Positions 35,573 to 42,531 of a DNA stretch of 44,323 nt are shown here, piece after piece (position 1 is the stretch's first letter; every line of letters starts with the position of its first letter). The position numbers and the translations under genes were made by a program. Under the pieces are notes generated by a model that saw nothing but the letters and a program-made list of their open reading frames with translations, did not search any database and was not told the origin of the DNA. The DNA is taken from NCBI GenBank assembly GCA_902812445.1, contig CADDZF010000009.1:1-44323 (forward strand). The letters run 5' to 3'. The stretch is from Methylococcaceae bacterium (lineage in GTDB: Bacteria; Pseudomonadota; Gammaproteobacteria; Methylococcales; Methylococcaceae).

Positions 35573-35608
35573 GCCTGTTCGACGACAGGAAGGCGGCCGA
35601 TCTCCTTG

Positions 35609-36682
35609 TCAAGCTCGTGGCAAGGTGCGGCAGCTGTTACGCGACGGCGTGCGGAGCTGAGGAAACGGCGAGTTCGGAGATGCATAGCGGCCGGTCTCGA
35701 GCGACCACAGAAGATTGCCCCGCACCCAGGCCTTGAGGCCGCGAACATAGCCGAATAGCGCGTTGTCTTGGCTGATCTCGGGCAGCAACTCACGTTCCTG
35801 GCGTATGAAGGCTCCGACATCGTCATTGATGAGCATAACGGCGCAGGTGGTGGCCTCTTCCAAAGAAAGCGCTCGATGCCTCATCAGTACATGCAGGAGG
35901 TTATTTGGATTTTTATGCAGCAACACCTCTTTCTCATACGAGAAAATGTCATTCGTAAAAGCAACGACATTGGTGCACAGCTCGCGGAGTTTTTGCAATC
36001 GCGGATTCGCGCATACCGCATCGGACAGTTCGAGCCTGTCTGCGCTAATTTCGATGAGGTCCTCACAGGTGTATACAGACGAATCAAAGCGCCTCTGCGC
36101 CAGATACGATTCGACGTCTGGAACAACATTGTTCGTCCAGTTTGCTACCGCTTTCAGCGTGCCGCGAAGGAGATAATCGCTGACATCGTCCGTAAAGCGG
36201 GCAAGCCATGCCTCGCTGGCGCAGTGCAGCATTCGGCGTCGAATGTGCTCTGTGAGACGCTCCAGGCCCGTTGGGCGTGAGCGCAGGTGCCCGGTCCTGA
36301 GGATGGCCAAACATTCGTGCATATACGCCTCAAGGTTCAGCGCTGAATGGCCAAGCTTTGTTTGTTCATCCGCCTGGTCATCGAAGAAGAAGAGCCAGGA
36401 ATGCCAATCATTGAAAACCTTGAGGCGATCAATCGGAGCATCGGGACAAATATAGCCTGACAACCGGGCAAATGCGCTTTCGTCGAATCTGCGCACCTGG
36501 GGCGCAGTGATCAGCTTGAATTCCAGCGCCAGTTGCTTGGTGGCCTCGTGTGCCGCTGCCACGTGCGCATTGAGCCTGGAGGGCCAAGAGGCGGGAACAA
36601 ACAGATCTGAAATCCCTAGTTGGGTCGTTCTGCAGGGCGCGAGCTCGGCACATAAGGGCAGGTTAGTTTCTTGCACCAACAT
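35609..36682 (-). CDS. Class I terpene synthase (terpene cyclase)
   Basis: The 357-residue protein has all the landmarks of a bacterial class I terpene synthase. The first metal motif is DDQADE at residues 101-106, preceded by WHSWLFFF. The pyrophosphate-sensor arginine is in YLAQRRFDSS (Arg197/198). The NSE motif is NDIFSYEKE at 244-252, and the C-terminal RY pair is in ETGRYA (332-333). It should bind an isoprenyl diphosphate through Mg2+ and cyclise it in the cytoplasm; chain length and product cannot be read from sequence. An AAGGAG ribosome site directly abuts the ATG at 36682, so a GTG two codons later (36676) may be the real start. The gene lies 34 bases after the GGDEF-EAL gene with no terminator between. 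No prenyl transferase or modifying P450 is nearby. Confidence 0.88.
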   Translation of the reverse strand: MLVQETNLPLCAELAPCRTTQLGISDLFVPASWPSRLNAHVAAAHEATKQLALEFKLITAPQVRRFDESAFARLSGYICPDAPIDRLKVFNDWHSWLFFFDDQADEQTKLGHSALNLEAYMHECLAILRTGHLRSRPTGLERLTEHIRRRMLHCASEAWLARFTDDVSDYLLRGTLKAVANWTNNVVPDVESYLAQRRFDSSVYTCEDLIEISADRLELSDAVCANPRLQKLRELCTNVVAFTNDIFSYEKEVLLHKNPNNLLHVLMRHRALSLEEATTCAVMLINDDVGAFIRQERELLPEISQDNALFGYVRGLKAWVRGNLLWSLETGRYASPNSPFPQLRTPSRNSCRTLPRA

Positions 36683-36716
36683 CTCCTTGATGAAACAGCA
36701 TTAAAGCCGATTCGAT

Positions 36717-39584
36717 TTAGTTCTTGACACTACGCGCGGCTTCTTGCTGAAGGACATAGGGCCGGGGCAGCTTGTCATCGGCGAACGCCGCTTGGTCGAT
36801 GAACGCCGAACTGGGGCGGCCGATGAAGTAACCTTGGACAAAATCGACACCCAGTGAACGCAAGATGGCCAAGGTCTTCGCATCTTCCACGCCCTCTGCG
36901 ATCACTTTCTGCTCATAGCCATGAGCCAAGATGGTCAGCGCGGTGACAAATGCCCGGTCACCCTTTTCGCCGGACAACTCGCTGACGAACGATTGATCGA
37001 TCTTCACGTATTTGACGGGCAGATTCTTCAGGTAATAGAACGAAGCGAAGCCGGCGCCAAAATCATCCAGCGCAAAGGCGAAACCCAAAGCCGAGAGCTC
37101 CTCCATAATTCGCCGAGCGGCTTCCAGATCGGCGATCGCTGCAGCTTCGGTGATCTCAAACAGGAGCCGGCTGGGTTCGAGTATGCCGCGATGAACCGCT
37201 TTCCTCAGCGGCTCAGCCCAATGGGGATCCGCGAGCGCGGCACTGGAAAGATTGATGGATAACCGCCTCGTCTTATCGTGCGTGAGAATGCGCAAGGCCT
37301 CGTCGGTGACGAAGGAATCGATGGCATCCATGAGCTGAGATCGTGAAGCAGCCTCCAAAAAATCACCCGGAAGCGCGAGACGCCCGTCTTCCAGCTTTAA
37401 TCGAATCAGCGCCTCGTGGTAAAAAATTTCCCCCGTTATCGCGTGTGCAATCGGCTGAAAATGCAGTAGCGCGCCGCCTTCTTTCTCCAGCGATCGGGTA
37501 ATCACACCGCGCCAGTACACCCGCTGCGCCGCTCCGATATGTCCGCCTTCGGAATCCGAAAAAAAGTGCCAGCGTCCCCGCCCCGCCTTTTTCGCCTGGT
37601 ACATGGCAATATCTGCATTGGCCATTACCTCTTCCACCGTCTTGCCATGTTCGGGAATTAACGCGATTCCCATGCTGCTCGATATCCGGTAGCTGCGGCC
37701 ATTGAACTGAAACATCCTTGCCTCGAGGCGCTGGATCAGGTCTTGGGCAAACGTTGCAGAACCATGCCTGTTGGCCCCCGGCATGAGGACGGCAAATTCA
37801 TCTCCGCCCAAACGGGCGAGTACATCGGATTTACGCGCGCGCTCCCGTAATTCATCGGCCAGGAGAATCAGCAAGGCATCACCCGCTGCATGCCCGCTGC
37901 TATCGTTGATGTCCTTGAAGTGATCGAGATCGAGCAGCACTAATGCAGCCGCCGTGCTGCTGCGTTCTGCCTCAGCGAAGCTGCGCTCCAGCTCCTCCCG
38001 GAACCTCGCCCTGTTGACCAAGCCGGTCAAAGGATCATGATTCGCCAGCCAGCGCATTTTCGATTCGGCTTCGATACGCGCCGTAACGTCGAGACCGACG
38101 GACAACACGGCGACTCCATCGGCGTGCGCTTGGCGTAGCCGGGTATGCACCCAAACGATGTGCCGCTTGCCGCCCTCCCGGCACACCAGGCCGGCTTCAT
38201 GTTCCAGCCGGTGTTGAGGAGCGACAAAGAGGGTTTCTAGCTGTTCGCTGATCTGACCTTTCTCATCATTGCCCTCGATCAGCTCGACAAATAGCCTGCC
38301 GGACAACTCGCTTAGCATGAGCCCAGTGAGCTGGCTGGTGAACTCATTGGCCGTATGGATCTTGCCGTCGCGGGTCTGCGTTAGAATAAGGACTTGCGCG
38401 GTATCGAACAGGCCCTGAATAAAGTCTCGATCGGCAATAAGCGCACGTTGGTTTTCCTCCAGTTGATACGCGAGCCTGACCGATGTTTCTTCGAGAATGC
38501 CGATCTCATCACGTGACGTCCTATGGGTGTTATTCCTCGCCAAGCGCTGGCGCGCCTCGCGATAGCGCCCTTGCGCCAGCAGCGGCAGGGTTTCGGCGAG
38601 CCGCTGCAAATGGCGCAAGGGCGCACGCACGAGCGCCAGCAGGAAAAGCTCGGCTATTGCGAGAGCGAACCCTATAATCAGCAGGCCCTCGTGGGTACCC
38701 CGCTGGACCTCCGCCACCGCGCGGCTGACATCCGCAACGAAAAGTATATTTCCGCTTCCGCCTTTGACGATGTCTCGCAACGGCAGTACGTGCAGGCTGT
38801 AGTTCTTTCCCTGCCATGCCAGCCAATCACCGTCGTTGAGGGCGCTCAAGGTCGGCTCCTGGTCAGCGAGCCGTGTCAGTAAAGGGCGAAGTTCATGGGC
38901 GTTGGACAATGCGGCAATCCGGAGCTGCCAACGGGAGAGATCCGTCTTGTCGTTCGGGCGGGCCGGCACCAGAATTGCGAGGTCGGTGCCGGTGATGGCC
39001 TGGAAACCGATGATAAGGTCGGCGATTCCTTGGCCCAGTTCGACGATCGCCAGATTGCGGCCGTCCTTCAAAATAGGCACGAACACATGCAGGTTACATA
39101 TCGGTTGGCAGGCAAGAATGGATACCGGGTGCTCCGCTTCACGAACCTGCTTCAGGGCCGCTCGCTCGAGGGCCTCAGGCAAGGTGCTAAAGGTGGTCGG
39201 AGTCCACTTCCAGAGCGACTTCCCCTCGAGCGTAAAAAGTTCCACGCGTTCGACGTCTAATTCATAGCGCAGGCTGGCATAACGGTGCTGCTGCTTCTGG
39301 GTAAACGCGAGGACATTTCGCGTCGTCAGGAATTGCTCGAGGTCGCCGAGGGCGGCGAGAACCACGCCAAGATGCTGAAGACGATCTGCCGACCGTTCAA
39401 TCAATTCGCCAAACTGCGACTGCAGAGTATGGAACGTTATGGCCTGTTGGGTACGAAACTGACTTTTAAGATGCAGATGATTGAGCACAGCGAAGCTGGC
39501 GCTAAGGCCTGTCAGCAGCAGGCTTAGAAGGATCAATCCTTTCCAGTGTAAGCTGAAGAAGGGCGTTCTCCCATCTTGCGCCAT
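36717..39584 (-). CDS. Membrane-bound PAS-GGDEF-EAL c-di-GMP signalling protein
   Basis: The 955-residue protein (ATG at 39584) has a membrane helix near residues 12-35, a ~260-residue periplasmic sensor region, and a second helix near 300-320. A HAMP-like helical linker, a PAS domain (~385-510), GGDEF (~515-680) and EAL (~700-940) follow. The cyclase signature LARLGGDEFAVL is intact, with inhibitory site RKSD exactly five residues before it. The phosphodiesterase motifs EALIR, NLS, FEITE, DDFGAG, KIDQSFV and AEGVE are all present. Both activities are therefore possible, with net direction set by the sensor. It lies 22 bases after the porin gene and 34 before the terpene synthase, all on one strand. 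An upstream in-frame ATG would add 42 unlikely residues. Confidence 0.9.
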   Translation of the reverse strand: MAQDGRTPFFSLHWKGLILLSLLLTGLSASFAVLNHLHLKSQFRTQQAITFHTLQSQFGELIERSADRLQHLGVVLAALGDLEQFLTTRNVLAFTQKQQHRYASLRYELDVERVELFTLEGKSLWKWTPTTFSTLPEALERAALKQVREAEHPVSILACQPICNLHVFVPILKDGRNLAIVELGQGIADLIIGFQAITGTDLAILVPARPNDKTDLSRWQLRIAALSNAHELRPLLTRLADQEPTLSALNDGDWLAWQGKNYSLHVLPLRDIVKGGSGNILFVADVSRAVAEVQRGTHEGLLIIGFALAIAELFLLALVRAPLRHLQRLAETLPLLAQGRYREARQRLARNNTHRTSRDEIGILEETSVRLAYQLEENQRALIADRDFIQGLFDTAQVLILTQTRDGKIHTANEFTSQLTGLMLSELSGRLFVELIEGNDEKGQISEQLETLFVAPQHRLEHEAGLVCREGGKRHIVWVHTRLRQAHADGVAVLSVGLDVTARIEAESKMRWLANHDPLTGLVNRARFREELERSFAEAERSSTAAALVLLDLDHFKDINDSSGHAAGDALLILLADELRERARKSDVLARLGGDEFAVLMPGANRHGSATFAQDLIQRLEARMFQFNGRSYRISSSMGIALIPEHGKTVEEVMANADIAMYQAKKAGRGRWHFFSDSEGGHIGAAQRVYWRGVITRSLEKEGGALLHFQPIAHAITGEIFYHEALIRLKLEDGRLALPGDFLEAASRSQLMDAIDSFVTDEALRILTHDKTRRLSINLSSAALADPHWAEPLRKAVHRGILEPSRLLFEITEAAAIADLEAARRIMEELSALGFAFALDDFGAGFASFYYLKNLPVKYVKIDQSFVSELSGEKGDRAFVTALTILAHGYEQKVIAEGVEDAKTLAILRSLGVDFVQGYFIGRPSSAFIDQAAFADDKLPRPYVLQQEAARSVKN

Positions 39585-39606
39585 GGCCGCTGATCCGATC
39601 CGAGCT

Positions 39607-40851
39607 CTAGAAGCGGTAAGACAGCATGAGGGCAAACAAATCCCAGTTGGGCTCTCCTCCGCCCTGGAGAAGATCCGGATTGTCTCGAGTCGACAGCCAT
39701 GCGGTCCCATTAATCCTGTGATATTCCGCCGCGATCAGGCAGTTCCGCAAAAACTCCCATCGGGCTCCGAGCATGAGGTCCTCGGTATAAAAGCGATGGC
39801 GCGGCAGACCGGTCAATGCAGCGGAATCCCGACCGTTAGCATCGTTACGATTGGCGTGAAAAACATCGTAGCGCAGCACTGCGGTCCAGCGGGCGGCGAA
39901 CCGGTATTCGCCTTGCACATAGAAACTCTCGGACGTATTTTTCAGGGGCCTCGGGACAAAGCCGCTGCGCCGGCTATCGATCCAGCCATACTCCGCCGTG
40001 ACGGAGAACCGCTCCGCGTTGTATTGCGCCGAAAACAAAGGATAGAAGGCCTTTATTTTGCCCGAAGGAATCAAAGGCGAGGTGGACTTGAAATCGAGGT
40101 CGAGGTCAACGGCCGAGAACATGAGCCGTCCGCGACCGCCCATCCATTCATAGACGGCCCGACCGATCAATGCAGGGCGTCCGCCGACCGAGCCTGGTGC
40201 GTCCTGGATGCCGGTGAGAAATTCGGTAGCGCCTCCCGTATTGTATTGCGGGTGTGCCGCCAGGAACTCAGCGCTAAATCGATGATTTCCATATTTGTAG
40301 CGGCCATAAACGATGCCTCCATCCGCGGAGATCATCGCTTGGCGCAGTCCCAAGGTATCGAAATAAATCGACTGCGGTAACAGCACCGAGGGCCGTGTCC
40401 AGATCACGTCTCGAGTATCGTTATAGAGTCCCAGGGGAACTTTTACCCGCCCGGCTCGCACCCCGAGGGTTGCGGCGGCATCCAGCAAGGAGATGCTATA
40501 GTCGGCTTGGGCAAAATCGAGCCGCAATCCCTGCCGATCCGATTCGCCCGCTCTTCGATAGAGCCCTTGCGCCGAGATCAGTAAACTGGGTAACAAGCGT
40601 ACCGATCCTGTCATCCCGATCTCAGTAAAATCGACGCTGCCGTTACGGCTATCTCCAAATACCTGATTATCAGAAGTATAAGTAAAACCTTGACTTAAAA
40701 AGCCATGTAGCTGCCAGTCGTCGGAGCCTATCTTGAGCGCCACCGAGGATTCTGGAGCGGTGCACAAGGTGGCTGTCACCAGCAGCCAAATAAGCTTTCG
40801 CAACGGCGATCGCTCAACTCCCAAGTCCGCCGTCCTCTTATTGAGCGACAT
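39607..40851 (-). CDS. Outer-membrane porin-like beta-barrel protein
   Basis: The protein has 414 residues from the ATG at 40851, with a signal peptide (LRKLIWLLVTATLCTAPESSVA) and a barrel of alternating strands. It ends in LFALMLSYRF, with the terminal Phe typical of outer-membrane proteins. DWQLHGFLSQGFTYTSDN at the mature N-terminus resembles porins paired with small periplasmic binding proteins. The start overlaps the upstream gene by 14 bases. An alternative TTG at 40824, well spaced after GAGG, would remove the overlap and give a shorter, cleaner signal peptide. It would serve as an uptake pore or a structural partner of the periplasmic protein. Confidence 0.8.
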   Translation of the reverse strand: MSLNKRTADLGVERSPLRKLIWLLVTATLCTAPESSVALKIGSDDWQLHGFLSQGFTYTSDNQVFGDSRNGSVDFTEIGMTGSVRLLPSLLISAQGLYRRAGESDRQGLRLDFAQADYSISLLDAAATLGVRAGRVKVPLGLYNDTRDVIWTRPSVLLPQSIYFDTLGLRQAMISADGGIVYGRYKYGNHRFSAEFLAAHPQYNTGGATEFLTGIQDAPGSVGGRPALIGRAVYEWMGGRGRLMFSAVDLDLDFKSTSPLIPSGKIKAFYPLFSAQYNAERFSVTAEYGWIDSRRSGFVPRPLKNTSESFYVQGEYRFAARWTAVLRYDVFHANRNDANGRDSAALTGLPRHRFYTEDLMLGARWEFLRNCLIAAEYHRINGTAWLSTRDNPDLLQGGGEPNWDLFALMLSYRF

Positions 40852-41218
40852 ACCCGATGCTCCCTGGCGTGGTCTCGAGCCGATTGCGCATTTCTTCAAC
40901 CGTTTCAACGATCGTAGGAGCAAGGCCGGTCCCTGAGTAGATCAGGCGGTCCCACGCCGAACGTAGCTGGAACGGATATACCCCGAGTACCTCTTTGGCG
41001 AAGCGGACATGCAGCGGGTGGTTGTCCGGTAAAACGAAGACGTGGATAGGCGAGCCGCCCGGCCAAGTGGTCAGCCGCATGAAGAAGATCTCCTGCAGCA
41101 TCTCACGCGAAAAGTGGGCGGCATAACCATTCGTATCGTATACGCGTGGATGAGCTTCGCCTGCCCAGACCAGCCCAACGAGTCTTAGCAACAAGAGAAT
41201 CAACAGCAAGGATCGCAT
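40838..41218 (-). CDS. Small periplasmic phosphate-binding-type (PBP-like) protein
   Basis: The 126-residue protein has a signal peptide (SLLLILLLLRLVGLVWA). The mature domain has the features of the short PstS-like proteins often annotated as phosphate ABC transporter substrate-binding: SREMLQEIFFMRLTTWPGGSPIHVFVLPD, HPLHVRFAKEVLGVYPFQLRSAWDRLIYSG, and the end TTPGSIGYVAQ. It is half the size of full PstS and no ABC permease or ATPase is nearby, so a sensor or accessory role is more likely than transport. It begins the run with the porin, GGDEF-EAL and terpene synthase genes. Confidence 0.78.
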   Translation of the reverse strand: MRSLLLILLLLRLVGLVWAGEAHPRVYDTNGYAAHFSREMLQEIFFMRLTTWPGGSPIHVFVLPDNHPLHVRFAKEVLGVYPFQLRSAWDRLIYSGTGLAPTIVETVEEMRNRLETTPGSIGYVAQ

Positions 41219-41730
41219 CGGCTATGTGCGCAACAGGTAAAGGTTGAATACTGCGCGTCGTTCAATCAGGAGACCGCCCGTTACCGGTCACCGGCGGCGA
41301 TCAGGGTGTGTAATGGTGTTGTTAAAGCATAGTCGAAATAGTTTTGTCTTCGGCGATGAAACGCGATGGTCGGCATTCCCTAACCGTTTGTATCTTATGG
41401 CGGCGCGGTTTCCTGACGTCAGCGCGGCGTCTGCGCTGGAGCGTTCAGAGGCGGGGGAAAATCTGCCATGCGAGTTGAGAAAAAGCCGGCTCCAGGGCCG
41501 GAAGCTTAGCGCTCAGGGGGCTTGCATGCGGGCAGTGATCGGATGCCTAGCCGAAGCTTTCGCTGCGCGAAGCTCTGCGCGATGCATCCGGCGTGCAACC
41601 GGCCCTTGCGCCTGGGTAATAGGCGGAAAACGGCGAATGATGGCTGGCTCTTTGAGCGATCGCACGCCATAAGACGCCGGCCCGGCCAGCAGAGATCCGT
41701 CTAATCGACGTCGCTGGCCGCCGGTTTTGC
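41219..41730. other. Intergenic region with a long nested inverted repeat
   Basis: About 510 bases without a supported gene; the open frames have no motifs. The main structure is an imperfect hairpin over 41522-41598. TTGCATGC (41522-41529) pairs with GCGTGCAA (41591-41598, one G-U pair), GGATGC (41541-41546) with GCATCC (41584-41589), and an inner AGCTT/AAGCT stem completes it. It could be a structured RNA or the end of the upstream PAS transcript. Confidence 0.5.
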
Positions 41731-42531
41731 TCAATCGGCCTGCATCGGACTTGGCGAGGCCAGGCGTTCCAGCAGCTTTCGAACGTCATCTCCCTTGCGC
41801 CAGCAAGTCACGGCATAGCTAAAGCGCCAACCTTCCGTTTCGTGCGCCAGCGCCACCCGCTCCCGCGCCAGTTTAGCCGCCAGCCTTTCGGCATCGGCTA
41901 GCGGCGTTTCGGGCAAAATCAACAAGAATCGAGCCGGCTCCAAGTGGCCTATCTGGTCGGCCCAGCGTAGATGGTCCTTAAATTCCTGCGCGACCGTGAG
42001 CAAGGTGTGGCTCACTTCGCCGGCACCCACACGTTCGGGCGGCACGAGACTCAGTTGGATGACCGACAGCGGATTGTAATAGCGCCGGCTGCGGGTGAGC
42101 TCGCTATCCAGGGCGTGCAGAATGGCGTTTCTCTTTAGCAGGCCGGTGGTGCCGTCTCGGGTCTCCAGCGCATTGACCGTGGCCTGCAGACGGTCGCGTT
42201 GCCGCTCAAGCTCAATCACCGGGCTGACATCCTGAAAAAAGTAAGCTTCTGCCGTGCTACCTTCCAGGCGTTTATGTTCGCGCCTCAGCCACCGAGTTTC
42301 ACCATCGCCTCGGGTCAGACACAGTTCGGGCGAATCCTCGAACAGCGCATCAAGACCTCTGGCCGCGGCTTGAAGGGCGTCGAGACCTAGCAGATCCTCG
42401 CGGGAGGCCGACAAAATCCGGGCGCAGGAATCGTTGATCCATTTGATTTCGCGCTCCTGTACGATCATCACGCCCAAAGGCACCTCCTCCAGGGCGCTGA
42501 TCGCGGTCGAAAGGTCTAGAAATTCGGGCAT
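41731..42531 (-). CDS. PAS domain protein with degenerate GGDEF domain
   Basis: The 266-residue cytoplasmic protein has an N-terminal PAS domain (residues ~10-110, with VPLGVMIVQEREIKWINDSCARIL), a short coiled linker (ELERQRDRLQATVNALETRD) and a GGDEF-fold domain. Its first motif is TTGLLKRNAIL. Where GGDEF should be the sequence is EPARF (HLEPARFLLILPE), so cyclase activity is not expected. The RxxD inhibitory-site motif (RWAD) is kept exactly five residues before that position, which suggests that it may still bind c-di-GMP as a receptor. It lies upstream of the porin / GGDEF-EAL / terpene synthase run on the same strand, but 512 bases separate them. Confidence 0.82.
   Translation of the reverse strand: MPEFLDLSTAISALEEVPLGVMIVQEREIKWINDSCARILSASREDLLGLDALQAAARGLDALFEDSPELCLTRGDGETRWLRREHKRLEGSTAEAYFFQDVSPVIELERQRDRLQATVNALETRDGTTGLLKRNAILHALDSELTRSRRYYNPLSVIQLSLVPPERVGAGEVSHTLLTVAQEFKDHLRWADQIGHLEPARFLLILPETPLADAERLAAKLARERVALAHETEGWRFSYAVTCWRKGDDVRKLLERLASPSPMQAD

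Follow-up and report, generated by a model that had tools for sequence, protein, structure and literature searches.

Bacterial terpene synthases (TSs) are many, and to our knowledge their control and the sensing of their volatiles are mostly unknown. The locus analysed here raises the question of whether a TS gene found at the end of a c-di-GMP sensor unit belongs to that unit and, if so, what it does there. The window, that is the whole 44,323-nucleotide stretch of Methylococcaceae DNA analysed (contig CADDZF010000009.1), contains a unit of four intact minus-strand genes running from 41218 to 35609, which code for a small periplasmic binding-protein-like protein (PBP), a porin, a dCache_3-PAS-GGDEF-EAL protein and the TS (Table 1). 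Genes coding for GAPDH, pyruvate kinase and GGDEF proteins are its neighbours in the window. The first-pass annotation had described the four genes as arranged head to tail, and we found the same positions, strand and junctions, with an overlap of 14 bases between the PBP and porin genes and gaps of 22 bases between the porin and GGDEF-EAL genes and of 34 bases between the GGDEF-EAL and TS genes.

Table 1 Features of the four-gene unit and its flanks in the window.
Feature	Coordinates	Strand	Evidence
Small PstS-like periplasmic protein (PBP), 126 aa, N-terminal signal-like helix, single lobe	40838..41218	(-)	ORF and weak PF12849 match
Outer-membrane porin, 414 aa, start ATG 40851	39607..40851	(-)	ORF and weak Porin_4 match
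dCache_3-PAS-GGDEF-EAL protein, 955 aa	36717..39584	(-)	Pfam, motifs, alignment, tree
Class I terpene synthase (TS), lineage TS-II, 357 aa	35609..36682	(-)	PF19086, motifs, fold
Upstream terminator-like hairpin, which would close off the transcript before the unit	41486..41501	(-)	Consensus scan, weak evidence
Terminator-like hairpin, 20 bases beyond the TS stop	35574..35589	(-)	Consensus scan, weak evidence

The earlier reading that no terminator separates the genes agrees with a consensus scan, which gave no terminator-like site in the intergenic gaps of the unit; the scan as a whole was barely above chance level (9 sites found against 6.6 ± 2.6 expected). Besides the two flanking hairpins, two minus-strand matches were intragenic, one in the porin gene (40331) and one in the GGDEF-EAL gene (39090). 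No sigma-70-like promoter was recognised by scan upstream of the PBP gene, and no riboswitch or other known RNA matched Rfam in the region to an E value of 0.1. On the basis of the spacing, the common strand and the absence of intergenic terminators, the four genes are probably co-transcribed. Further upstream, a separate minus-strand gene (41731-42531) codes for an N-terminal region followed by a GGDEF-like domain lacking the GGDEF motif (weak Pfam match); it is probably degenerate and is not kept beside other TS units.

The TS of the window matched PF19086 (class I terpene synthase, family 2) with an E value of 8e-36 and is the sole TS found in its genome. The aspartate-rich metal motif DDxxD/E (FFDDQAD) and the NSE triad ND(L/I/V)xSxxxE (NDIFSYEKE) are both present, and the alignment showed an invariant diphosphate-sensor arginine, R197, together with the C-terminal RY pair R332-Y333. 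The translation start may be GTG 36676 instead of ATG 36682, since an AAGGAG sequence abuts the ATG. The AlphaFold model exhibited an alpha-helical class I fold, with TMq of 0.76-0.79 and TMt of 0.86-0.92 to the T-muurolol and 1-epi-cubenol synthases, which are also the closest structures by sequence. The window TS thus has the same fold and catalytic motifs as the T-muurolol (9HQD), 1-epi-cubenol (9HQ2) and 10-epi-cubebol (7ZRN) synthases, but shares about 25-32% identity with them, and its gene belongs to a c-di-GMP sensor unit where tailoring enzymes were not recognised. Unlike in a classical terpene cluster, neither a tailoring enzyme nor a prenyl transferase was recognised beside the window TS, and no tailoring gene was recognised beside the related units in the part of their neighbours that was profile-scanned. 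The nearest structures of the window TS are thus cadinane-type synthases, enzymes that pass through germacradienyl-type cations. Sequence and model together predict that the window TS is a sesquiterpene cyclase, with a sesquiterpene as the likely product. Two other kinds of synthase were considered and rejected: an encapsulin-cargo synthase, as the NCBIfam cargo3 match reached 134 of 1200 bits, far under the cut-off, and a geosmin synthase, as the two-domain synthases seen elsewhere in the order have a different place in the TS tree. These two-domain proteins, of about 780-800 residues and thus of geosmin-synthase-like size (G029:C279, G162:C2 and G201:C13), are unlinked to the PBP-porin-GGDEF-EAL triad in the two loci read.

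The GGDEF-EAL protein carries GGDEF (2.7e-46), EAL (9.9e-65), dCache_3 (1e-25) and PAS_4 (2e-8) domains by Pfam. Its GGDEF active site and RxxD inhibitory site are intact (RKSD-x5-GGDEF, within RKSDVLARLGGDEF), and so are the phosphodiesterase residues of the EAL domain (YHEALIR, DDFGAG, VKIDQS, AEGVED and VQGY). In related units the GGDEF motif and the inhibitory site were intact in 19 of the 19 GGDEF proteins read, whereas the EAL domain is absent from six units belonging to two lineages (G143, G244, G286, G102, G139 and G338), and one EAL catalytic glutamate is replaced in G131 and G119. As the EAL domain was lost in several units while the GGDEF domain was retained, c-di-GMP synthesis, or binding by the GGDEF domain, would be the kept function, and in vivo the change would be towards more c-di-GMP. 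The c-di-GMP turnover proposed in the first-pass annotation is therefore better read as synthesis.

The same annotation had called the first protein PstS-like. Of the four proteins, the PBP was the only one without a Pfam match at 0.001. It and each of its ten relatives do match PF12849 (PBP_like_2) weakly, the window protein covering just the latter half of that profile (positions 104-185 of 267). The best PDB matches of its AlphaFold model (pLDDT 91.5) are indeed PstS proteins, at a TMq of about 0.5; these matches are weak, the best having an E value of 3.5e-3 and none passing 0.001. The two-lobed periplasmic binding fold of PstS was not found in this 126-residue protein, whose structural match covers about half the length, and the region aligned by eye to the RSDGSGT-type phosphate loop reads LPDNHPLH. 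Judged from the model, the PBP is one lobe of a PstS-type fold and not a phosphate-binding protein of known type; the name PstS-like is not to be taken as a sign of phosphate sensing. The PBPs of TS units stop right after a GY(I/V) strand, whereas most plain-triad PBPs extend about 14 residues further.

The porin matched Porin_4 at 7e-4, below the cut-off, and no relative of solved structure was found by sequence search. It belongs to a well-conserved, 414-residue, barrel-type family ending in YRF, and is 54-69% identical to the porins of other TS units. The PBP-porin pair is found ahead of other signalling genes in Solimonas, Sorangium, Bdellovibrionales and Methylomirabilis, namely those for a dCache histidine kinase, further kinases or a chemoreceptor (loci L119, L155, L159 and L161). 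This speaks for an input role of PBP and porin, as a modular and apparently undescribed sensory front end. The genome of the window (G000) also has a plain PBP-porin pair, paralogous to that of the TS unit, at C38:8048-9596 (porin 358 bits, PBP 90 bits).

We then asked whether the arrangement recurs in other genomes. The slot at the end of the unit holds three TS lineages, TS-I, TS-II (that of the window) and a third, TS-III, of about 506 residues. Among 201 genomes, the window's own included and some of them drafts, the TS query matched 16, and 12 of these 16 loci, again counting the window, adjoin the same triad. Ten loci besides the window have the order PBP-porin-GGDEF(EAL)-TS; in one of the related units, that of G038, the unit spans two contigs with the break at the PBP-porin junction, and in G058 the gene order has changed, the TS coming first yet still adjacent to the triad. 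The closest TS to that of the window (50-53% identity), a TS-II in genome G013, lies about 435 kb from its triad. Distances between genes in related units are mostly -40 to 125 bases. When named genomes were scanned for the porin, the unit turned up in Methylocaldum sp. 14B, Methylobacter luteus, M. marinus, Ca. M. favarea, Methyloglobulus morosus and MAGs. Complete or reduced versions of it also occur in Nitrosomonadaceae-type genomes, as G338 and G483 were classed from their family code (f36), an AMO-family gene and their position in the porin tree. Nitrosomonas aestuarii has a reduced PBP-porin-TS form, in two N. marina genomes about 8-10 kb of a single contig separates the porin from the TS, the PBP and GGDEF genes proper to the unit being absent, and G680 keeps porin and TS on different contigs, the unit's PBP and GGDEF genes being gone. 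The same gene order across families rules out chance neighbours. The synteny survey suggested by the first-pass annotation thus found the TS repeatedly beside the triad, the opposite of a TS that never associates with the other three genes.

Two side observations concern the genomes surveyed. In Nitrosomonas-type genomes, a similar protein of about 520 residues is encoded directly 3' of the TS (L097 10493-12067, L207 14219-15772 and L208 5310-6863), of which the L207 copy matches an M10 peptidase and RTX repeats. The genome of the window, 99.9% complete, has no match to PF02461 (pmoA/amoA), whereas most relatives tested have one; the assembly could have a gap there, or the organism could lack particulate methane monooxygenase.

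The co-occurrence of porin and TS was then counted. The TS-type porin was found in 19 of 311 genomes of the order, scoring 594-770 bits against at most 361 for the rest; this gap, noticed in the scores themselves, was what defined the group, so that the contingency figures serve as description. The 19 include every one of the 16 genomes with TS-I or TS-II. The remaining three are G102 and G139, with TS-III in the slot, and G069, whose triad has no TS of any kind. A PF19086 TS is thus present in 18 of the 19, inside the unit in 17 (one split over two contigs), giving a Fisher p of about 2e-24 for co-occurrence over genomes with relatedness ignored. In six genera some genomes have the porin and others do not, and in six out of six the presence of the TS goes with that of the porin (sign test, 0.016).

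In the porin tree, TS-linked porins form one clade (support 100/99, 25 rows), with the window and G013 inside a supported group of ten that includes Methylocaldum and Methyloglobulus, and G102 and G139 beside Methyloglobulus. The sensor-GGDEF tree agrees, as TS-linked triads again make one clade (20 rows, 100/100) with the same ten at 100/99. In the TS trees, TS-I is one clade (99/97-98) and the TS-II proteins of the window and G013 fall outside it. Forcing TS-II to its porin-tree position cost 29 log units and was rejected (AU p=0.008), whereas TS-I and TS-II as one clade was not (AU p=0.10). TS and triad histories therefore differ in the lineage of the window: by these trees TS-II did not follow the phylogeny of the triad itself, which is not to claim that it is wholly unrelated to TS-I. 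The third lineage, which occupies the TS slot of G102 and G139 (genus g33), is a PF19086 protein bearing the motifs DDLLD and NDVLS. Its N-terminus is extended by about 200 residues, and the canonical C-terminal RY is missing (L202 11111-12631, L203 11191-12735). It thus appears that one TS was exchanged for another in a slot that persisted; replacement is the simplest reading of the trees, and strong acceleration of TS-II a less likely alternative. Conserved synteny, co-occurrence, congruent trees and replacement within the slot all bear out the suspicion that the TS belongs to the unit.

A possible product comes from one of the species carrying the unit. Methylobacter luteus emits germacrene in liquid and on plates, while the other three methanotrophs tested did not (PMC11964084); the paper ties the emission to a terpene gene cluster in general terms, and its text mentions neither c-di-GMP nor a porin. 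As the one PF19086 match in the M. luteus genome record lies inside the unit, this TS-I is the leading candidate for the germacrene synthase, paper and genome being matched at species level. The product of the window TS-II may differ from it.

How does the unit compare with known systems? The first-pass annotation had referred to a known association of the first three genes. Plain triads without a TS are indeed common in other Gammaproteobacteria (Halomonadaceae, Thiocapsa, Thioalkalivibrio and others) and also occur in Methylococcales, with the same three genes, order and domain architecture as the unit; however, they have no adjoining TS, their porins, which reach no more than 361 bits where those of the TS-linked clade score 594-770 within the order, are not part of that clade, and our literature search found no published description of such a triad. 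Nor did it find one of a TS-carrying c-di-GMP sensor unit, the one paper to mention terpene synthases along with c-di-GMP or GGDEF operons being an unrelated review. The nearest characterised signalling logic is NspS-MbaA, a polyamine periplasmic binding protein with a GGDEF-EAL sensor in Vibrio cholerae and Sinorhizobium (PMC5646818, PMC8967002, PMC9993111). As in that system, a periplasmic binding-protein-type component is encoded beside a membrane GGDEF-EAL protein (41218-36717), and NspS-MbaA is a precedent for sensing a self-made metabolite. Unlike it, with its PotD-like polyamine binder and neither porin nor TS, the unit combines a porin and a TS with a PstS-like protein of one lobe; it resembles the plan and is not a member. 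The unit is a variant of known c-di-GMP sensor operons with a TS added, not previously described as far as we found.

Some functional coupling between TS and triad is, in our judgement, highly probable. As for its direction, we infer that an envelope cue would pass the porin; the one-lobe PBP would then hand it on to the dCache domain that the GGDEF(-EAL) protein exposes to the periplasm, and through this contact the protein would raise c-di-GMP; the same transcript would supply the sesquiterpene cyclase, and a germacrene/cadinane-type volatile would be emitted in the same state, attached and with high c-di-GMP. The unit would then be a horizontally mobile, co-inherited and probably co-transcribed module with the TS as co-output, a reading that we favour over the others and hold tentatively, at somewhat short of an even chance. 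The lack of a recognised promoter or riboswitch at the unit counts against it, and coupling in cis is not obligatory, since G069 has the triad without a TS and G013 has its TS-II about 435 kb from the triad.

The evidence does not separate the terpene as output from the terpene as signal. It is conceivable, if somewhat unlikely, that signalling is autocrine, the TS product of the cell or of a neighbour re-entering via the porin, binding the PBP or the dCache domain and switching the GGDEF protein, in such a way that the genes for synthase and receptor move as a pair, after the manner of a luxI/luxR-type cassette, comparable to the sensing of self-made norspermidine by NspS-MbaA in Vibrio cholerae. 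Producer and sensor do move together between Methylococcales and Nitrosomonadaceae-type genomes, the specialised triad clade sits on a long stem and is often kept beside the plain triad of the same genome, and the missing C-terminal stretch of TS-unit PBPs may point to an altered pocket; there is also the precedent cited (PMC5646818), in which a PBP and a GGDEF-EAL protein sense a metabolite that the cell itself makes. Against this, no obviously corresponding change in the sensor accompanied the swap of the TS for other lineages, G069 retains its triad without a TS, and the ligand is not readable from sequence. We also know of no PBP-fold protein that binds sesquiterpenes. The swap and the loss in G069 mildly favour output, while a dedicated paralogue clade travelling with the synthase mildly favours signal. 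We consider it unlikely that bacteria use a volatile sesquiterpene as a signal and have a receptor devoted to it, TS and porin/PBP/dCache-GGDEF making up one cassette that moves among methanotrophs and ammonia oxidisers and through which an airborne or self-made terpene would be translated into c-di-GMP.

Two further explanations seem to us improbable, to an equal degree. The porin could be the functional partner of the TS, letting the hydrophobic product out (or in), with the sensor genes having come along from an ancestral triad. The accompaniment of the porin by a TS in 18 of 19 genomes of the order speaks for such a pair, and N. marina and G680, where porin and TS persist though the PBP and GGDEF genes of the unit are gone, fit a porin-TS link better than a c-di-GMP link; these losses, however, may be one or two events, small sesquiterpenes are expected to cross membranes unaided, and G069 and G013 weaken the pairing. 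Alternatively, the TS could have hitchhiked once beside a mobile triad, the block then spreading by transfer without any working link, in keeping with the patchy distribution, the apparent transfer between orders and the unlinked TS of G013. Neutral clustering of this kind would not lead one to expect that the slot holds three TS lineages, that the TS stays adjacent after the change of order in G058, or that joint presence or absence recurs within genera.

Read as a module with the TS as co-output, the synthase on the same strand as a c-di-GMP sensor would be a concrete link between surface sensing and scent. The unit is a gene-level candidate for the germacrene of M. luteus, for which roles in the methane cycle and in protist grazing have been suggested and are still open; it also offers a candidate receptor for terpenes made by bacteria. 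These data suggest that some methane oxidisers and related ammonia oxidisers inherit a block in which scent production is tied to a sensed change at the cell surface.
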